Positions 36,080 to 37,693 of a stretch of DNA of 64,000 nt are shown one piece after another. Both the position numbers and the translations under genes were made by a program. This stretch comes from Streptomyces sp. WM6378 (GTDB taxonomy: Bacteria > Actinomycetota > Actinomycetes > Streptomycetales > Streptomycetaceae). Numbering within the stretch: position 1 is the first letter of the stretch; every line of letters starts with the position of its first letter. The DNA lies in NCBI RefSeq assembly GCF_001279695.1, contig NZ_LGDD01000317.1, positions 62,001-126,000 on the forward strand, in the 5' to 3' direction. The notes under the pieces were generated by a model, which was not told where the DNA came from, did no database searches, and was given only the letters and a program-made list of their open reading frames with translations.

Positions 36080-36870
36080 GTGATAACCCTCGCGGAGAAC
36101 GTCGAAGAGACCACGGGACAGGCCGCCCACAAGGCGCACGACCTGGGGAATCCGCCGCGCTACTTCGTCTCCGCGATGCTGGCGGGCGCCTACATCGGGA
36201 TCGGCGAGGTGCTGCTGCTCGTCGCGATCTCGCCGTTCGTCGCCGCGCACTCGGCGGCGACCAGGCTGCTCGAAGGGGCGGTCTTCCCGATCGCTCTGAC
36301 GATCGTGATGTTCGCCGGGGCGCAGCTCTTCACCTCCAACGTGTTGGTGATGCTGATGGGCGCCCTGTCGGGGCGTACGGGGCCGAAGGACCTGGTGGCG
36401 AGCTGGGGGCTCTCGCTTGCCGGGAACCTCGCCGGGGCGCTGGCCTTCGGCGCGATGGTGCACGCCTCGGGGGTCACCTCGGCCGGCTCGGCCCGCGCGA
36501 TGCTCGCCGAGATGCTGGCCGCGAAGAACGCGCTGGACGGCGGGCAGCTGTTCTGGCGGGCGGTGCTCTGCAACATGCTGGTCTGCCTGGGCATCTGGAT
36601 GTTCTCGCGGGCCAAGGGGGACGGCGCGAAGGTCTTCGTGCTGTGGCTGCCGGTGCTTGTGTTCGTGGCCGTGGGCTTCGAGCACTGCGTGGCCAACATG
36701 GCGCTGTTCGGCCTCGGCGTCTTCGAGGGGAGCGCGAGCTTCGGGGAACTAGCGCGAGCTTCGGGGAACTGCTGCGGAACCTGGCGTTCACCGTGCCGGG
36801 GAACATCGTCGGCGGCGGGGCCCTGGTGGCGGGGACGTACTGGTTCACCAGCGGGTCGCGCCGGGCCTGA
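36080..36870 (+). pseudogene. Formate/nitrite transporter-family channel, frameshifted by a 20-bp tandem duplication
   Basis: Reads as a FocA/NirC-type pentameric channel subunit: NPPRYFVSAMLAGAYIGIGE at residues ~25-44, then repeated membrane segments and GFEHCVANMALFGLG. After residue 223 the frame is lost because AGCGCGAGCTTCGGGGAACT at 36731-36750 is repeated exactly at 36751-36770. With one copy removed the gene runs without interruption to the TGA at 36868-36870 as a 256-aa protein ending in LAFTVPGNIVGGGALVAGTYW plus a short basic tail. As written, translation would leave the last membrane segment and run on to 37783 through sequence antisense to the next gene. Either a true mutation, a reversible slippage, or an assembly error. 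The GTG start at 36080 lacks a clear ribosome site; TAGCGT at 36068-36073 suggests a leaderless message. Confidence 0.85.
36731..36770. repeat. 20-bp perfect tandem duplication
   Basis: Two adjacent identical copies of AGCGCGAGCTTCGGGGAACT. Twenty is not a multiple of three, so one extra copy shifts the channel gene out of frame. Confidence 0.97.
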
Positions 36871-36889: not shown

Positions 36890-37693
36890 TCACTCCTCGC
36901 GCGGGCGGTGGATCGCCAGCCACCGCTCGGCATAGGCGACCGCGTCCCGGACCGGGAACAGGCGAGCGGCGGCGGCGCCCACCGTGCCCCGCACCACCTC
37001 CCGGTCCCGCTCGAAGTCCGCGCCCAGCTCGTCGAAGCGCTCGCTCGTGATGGACGTGTCCCGGACGGTCAGCCACTTCCGGCCCTCGGGAGCCGTCGCC
37101 GCGAAGGAGACCTCCGCCAGCGGCCCCGGTATCCGGTATTCCGCCAGGTGGAAGGACGTACACGAGTCGTACCCCGCGCCGAGCAGCAGCACTCGGGCGC
37201 CCGCGTCCTCCAGGCGGGCCAGTGGGCTGCGCTCGCCGAGGCGGCAGTCGAGGGCGTGGCCCTCGGTGATCCGCGCCGCGCCCGGGCCGACCGCCGCGAA
37301 GGAGGTCTGCGGATGGGCGCTGCGCAGGGCGCCCGGCCAGGTGCGGACGGCCTCCGGGATCACCCCGATGCCCCGGCTCGGCGTGGTCAGCGGGTCGTAG
37401 GCCGGCGTCGTGGCCCGGATCTCCTCCCACCACTCCTCGGGCACCGGAGGGCGCCCCCAGTGCGCGGGGTCGGAGTTGTCGCCGGAGTGCGTGGGGACCA
37501 CGAGCGTGCCCGTTTCGCCCAATGTGTCGAAAAATGCCTGAACGACCGCGACGGCGCCTCCGCAGACCCAGCCGAGCGACTTCAGGGAGGAGTGCACGAG
37601 GAGGGTCTCGCCGGGTCGTACCCCGAGCTCGCGCAGGTCCTCGGCGAGCGAGCCGCGCGTACACAAAGGGCCGGTCACAGGGGGTGTGGGCAT
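36890..37693 (-). CDS. AAC(3)-family aminoglycoside N-acetyltransferase-like protein
   Basis: A 267-aa protein with the AAC(3)/antibiotic N-acetyltransferase fold: LLVHSSLKSLGWVCGG (residues ~31-46), GTLVVPTHSGDNSDP, and SFAAVGPGAARITEGH with the conserved HP / HALDC region. Family enzymes acetylate the 3-amino group of aminoglycosides, but many chromosomal actinomycete members act on other substrates, so resistance should not be assumed. ATG at 37693. Divergent from sufR across a region with an iron-box-like element and an inverted repeat. Confidence 0.85.
   Translation of the reverse strand: MPTPPVTGPLCTRGSLAEDLRELGVRPGETLLVHSSLKSLGWVCGGAVAVVQAFFDTLGETGTLVVPTHSGDNSDPAHWGRPPVPEEWWEEIRATTPAYDPLTTPSRGIGVIPEAVRTWPGALRSAHPQTSFAAVGPGAARITEGHALDCRLGERSPLARLEDAGARVLLLGAGYDSCTSFHLAEYRIPGPLAEVSFAATAPEGRKWLTVRDTSITSERFDELGADFERDREVVRGTVGAAAARLFPVRDAVAYAERWLAIHRPREE

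Follow-up and report, generated by a model that had tools for sequence, protein, structure and literature searches.

A 20-bp tandem duplication in the FNT channel gene of Streptomyces sp. WM6378, probably a recent loss-of-function event

Introduction

Channels of the formate/nitrite transporter (FNT) family are pentamers built of subunits with six helices. Short tandem duplications inside genes, which can put such a gene out of frame, are an already known kind of event. In Xenorhabdus nematophila, loss-of-function tandem duplications of 26-116 bp have been described in lrp (PMC6786866), and phase variation of the pneumococcal capsule by tandem duplication is mentioned in a later paper's account of the original work (Waite et al. 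2001, 2003, cited in PMC4022640).

Here we analyse a 64-kb stretch of the genome of Streptomyces sp. WM6378 (bases 62001-126000 of its contig), referred to below as the window, in which a recent 20-bp tandem duplication appears to have shifted the reading frame of the sole FNT gene found in the genome.

Results

The duplication and the affected reading frame

An earlier note on this DNA had claimed a perfect 20-bp direct duplication at 36731..36770, and two exact adjoining copies were indeed found there: AGCGCGAGCTTCGGGGAACT is present twice, head to tail, at 36731-36770, with no mismatch. Tandem Repeats Finder assigned to it a period of 20, 2.0 copies, 100% matches and a score of 80, the highest of 62 rows. 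Besides both copies, the 64 kb contained no further match to the unit with up to two mismatches allowed, and no match was obtained in 100 shuffles. The features of the region are as follows.

36080-36750, plus strand: FNT (FocA/NirC-type) gene, portion in the start-codon frame; PF01226 positions 3-207, 191.6 bits
36731-36750, plus strand: first 20-bp unit, exact copy
36751-36770, plus strand: second 20-bp unit, which is the frame shift; exact copy, with a single unit in 16/16 aligned relatives
36751-36870, plus strand: C-terminal FNT piece (last helix), out of the start frame; PF01226 positions 215-240, 20.3 bits
36080-37783, plus strand: 567-aa open frame with a GTG start
36890-37693, minus strand: Antibiotic_NAT (PF02522) gene, full-length profile match
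37830: HTH regulator gene

As the unit of 20 bp is not a multiple of 3, its duplication shifts the frame. Positions 3-207 of the Form_Nir_trans profile precede the duplication (window 36080-36751), and their score far exceeds the curated cut-off of 34.6, which places the gene in the FNT family; positions 215-240 follow in a different frame, so the domain with its last helix is no longer whole in any single frame. The score of this C-terminal piece lies below the same cut-off, as is expected with a short piece. GC content at the three codon positions is 0.67/0.46/0.96 upstream of the duplication; downstream of it, the values are 0.64/0.97/0.59 in the start-codon frame and 0.62/0.62/0.95 in the alternative one. 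Thus, the profile match and the third-position GC switch frames together at the duplication, which indicates that the coding frame changes there.

The frame is lost about 40 codons ahead of the end of the FNT gene. The final 38 residues of the out-of-frame piece are those of the nearest protein, P0001, an intact protein of 255 aa from another assembly. P0001 matched the solved FNT channels 3tdp_A (2.1e-38, over residues 5-246) and NirC 4fc4_A (2e-29), and since this alignment extends over residues 5-246, the out-of-frame part would be the last of the six helices. It had been proposed that removal of one copy restores an intact 256-aa protein, and this agrees with the lengths of the two closest relatives, both intact (255 and 256 aa), and with the end of the C-terminal piece at 36870. 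The loss of the last helix and the reading through to 37783 over antisense sequence, also put forward earlier, were likewise recovered: past 36890 the 567-aa frame is the antisense of the Antibiotic_NAT gene. Its residues 190-420 had no match among 7994 candidates listed and scored, a search in which broken genes may lack annotation altogether, and we do not regard the 567-aa open frame as encoding a working protein.

The Antibiotic_NAT gene separates the FNT gene from the HTH regulator gene; in two related loci (L144 and L015) only about 100 bases are found in this place.

Relatives carry a single unit

In all 16 aligned relative loci a 20-bp gap is located at the duplication, that is, they have a single unit. 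These loci, 14 of them distinct (over 836 columns L009 does not differ from L039, nor L012 from L034), belong to species other than the source, and where they match the window their DNA identity is 73-81%; a locus with a damaged gene (L015) was left out of the alignment, and in L036 and L038, where the pairwise match ends ahead of the duplication, the gap comes from the multiple alignment. Of 14 loci checked for frame, 13 keep the FNT parts before and after the site in a single frame (10 of them come from genomes also present in the 16-locus alignment), and the sole exception (L015, in genome G173) is damaged differently. A crude longest-frame call chose another frame in L005, L008 and L038, of which the former two were confirmed (as L140 and L145) and the last was not. 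No genome with the second unit was detected among the 16 aligned or the 14 frame-checked loci (10 genomes common to both). Matches were obtained in 205 of 295 genomes, most of them short and unrelated. No same-species genome was found among 61 relatives, the closest of which showed 95% identity over a 1347-base stretch and gave no FNT match.

The nearest named protein relatives of the gene are from Streptomyces. Start aside, P0001 differs from the window gene in one residue, upstream of the duplication, and P0002 (Streptomyces sp. NPDC057910), at 94%, is an intact protein of 256 aa. When private residues were inspected for signs of older decay, only one was found at columns conserved to at least 95%; the rest of the gene is thus hardly changed, with no sign of a longer decay. 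The duplication had been described as recent-looking, and the single unit in the relatives, together with the intactness of the nearly identical P0001, indicates that it is derived and recent. These comparisons show that a single unit is the ancestral condition and that the FNT gene was intact until recently; an intact ancestor and a derived state out of frame are what a young pseudogene presents.

Few sampled genomes of the genus have the FNT gene, and damaged copies exist elsewhere

The first part of the FNT gene is matched in 18 of 392 genomes of the genus at E <= 1e-30, and in 13 of them (the source included) at an identity of at least 75%. PF01226 has a single match in the source genome. 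Rescue by a paralogue was rejected on this ground, and a plasmid origin was rejected as well, since matches were found in five plasmid records but in no case covered more than 80% of the query. Two matches to NirB-type nitrite reductase scored above the cut-off, which suggests that nitrite might be handled independently of the FNT gene. No FNT gene of Streptomyces was named in the titles of the 10 papers listed by a literature search.

Damaged homologues were found in several other lineages. In genome G173 the gene stands at the same place (L015, about 1465-1943) without two inner parts; the frame of P0060 is gone after approximately residue 180, P0063 has an internal deletion and P0077 is short. 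P0061, from Streptacidiphilus jiangxiensis, goes out of frame within its last helix, a short way past the position struck in the window. The tail motif is absent from 6 of 120 proteins, among which P0060 and P0077 are damaged and P0061 has lost its frame, while P0059, P0102 and P0109 are motif variants only. Some of the damaged homologues may be sequencing or annotation errors.

Discussion

Our results are probably best explained by an ordinary recent loss-of-function event, which has left in this strain a young pseudogene of a dispensable gene. Since each of the five subunits of an FNT channel has six helices, the shifted protein would form no working channel, and such a loss might well be tolerated, as few genomes of the genus have the gene and some other lineages carry damaged versions of it, which points to its being dispensable. 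The ends of the 20-bp unit share no microhomology, which fits a staggered break, filled in and end-joined, better than replication slippage. Ku is encoded in the source genome, so that end-joining of such a break could have been the origin of the duplication. Neither did we find a fold that would favour slippage, the duplication stretch having a z of 0.04, with 102 of 200 shuffles folding equally well; the part-repeats noticed nearby by eye, CTTCG spaced 18 and GGGGA spaced 16, do not have the spacing of 20. An ordinary loss is the most likely reading, followed by a local assembly error, and a switch or recoding is unlikely. The duplication appears in one draft assembly only (361 contigs, 9.49 Mb), with no second isolate bearing two units, and the intactness of the closest relative fits an assembly error equally well.

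A local error of assembly or sequencing, in which case the strain itself would have a single unit and an undamaged channel gene, is possible, though distinctly less probable than a genuine loss. It could have arisen if a 20-bp overlap was written twice, this being the size expected when pieces of word length 21 are joined end to end; the number of contigs in the draft, the intact P0001, the unit ends devoid of microhomology and the nearly unchanged remainder of the gene are all consistent with it. However, in 1,131,936 bases of the source genome there is just one perfect duplication with a unit length of 20, that of the window itself, neither end of its 157,975-base contig comes closer to the site than about 59 kb, and the contig parts examined (all but 2 kb) contain no N. 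Perfect tandem duplications with units of at least 10 numbered 32 in these 1,131,936 bases versus 48 in 400,000 bases of a relative assembled in one contig (G012), and those with units of at least 13 that are not multiples of 3 numbered 4 and 3, respectively. This survey covered about 12% of the 9.49-Mb genome and one control genome, with 6,055 bases of N that make up four short all-N contigs, and within it no excess of perfect tandem duplications of the same length, as a systematic artefact would leave, was seen. Elsewhere in the same genome, a 22-bp tandem unit (matching run 37) was noticed in L162 from 1939, with no long frame across it.

The earlier note had offered a fixed loss, a phase switch and an assembly error as options. 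Loss and error both fit the ancestral one-unit state, whereas the switch obtained no positive support. That the FNT gene toggles on and off through loss and gain of the second unit is very unlikely. A perfect tandem repeat is able to collapse, and duplications of this kind within the capsule genes of pneumococci have been interpreted as phase variation (PMC4022640). A switch would predict a variable copy number, but each of the 16 aligned loci has a single unit and two units are present in the window only; of the 61 closest proteins, 55 allowed the spacing of two motifs across the site to be measured (6 did not), and it came to 25 residues in 54 of them and to 26 in one (P0044). The unit ends and the fold, described above, speak against it too, and the 26-116 bp duplications in Xenorhabdus lrp are counted among mutations that the authors distinguished from phase variation (PMC6786866). 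A reversible anion-channel switch of Streptomyces that works through a 20-bp unit, in a gene that has gone out of frame within the last helix in a related genus as well (P0061), is hardly to be expected; only if both forms occurred in one culture would the switch be worth study. Finally, it is extremely improbable that the ribosome bypasses the shift or that the 567-aa frame yields a useful fusion protein, for although this frame is open to 37783 and each copy holds a run of four G (by eye), the GC pattern of the shifted FNT part is unlike that of a coding frame, residues 190-420 are without a match among the candidates scored, long antisense open frames are common across the 64-kb window, and by eye there is no classical slippery heptamer.

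For annotation, the favoured reading of a recent loss means that one should neither enter the 567-aa frame as a protein nor list an FNT channel for the strain; the locus adds one further damaged copy of a gene uncommon in Streptomyces.

Compared with the FNT channels (NirC, FocA, 3tdp/3tdo 'formate/nitrite transporter', PF01226), the window gene before the break, like P0001, is a clear member of the family, and it differs from them in that its last segment is out of frame and the domain no longer whole. With the pneumococcal capsule genes (cited in PMC4022640) it shares a short duplication in an open frame that switches a gene off; reversion is central to that system, whereas no indication that the two states coexist was found for the window. 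The lrp duplications of X. nematophila (PMC6786866) arose in cultures that were followed, while the 20-bp unit of the window comes from one draft assembly; both are nevertheless short tandem duplications within a gene, and the FNT family to which the window gene belongs has also been damaged by other routes in other lineages.
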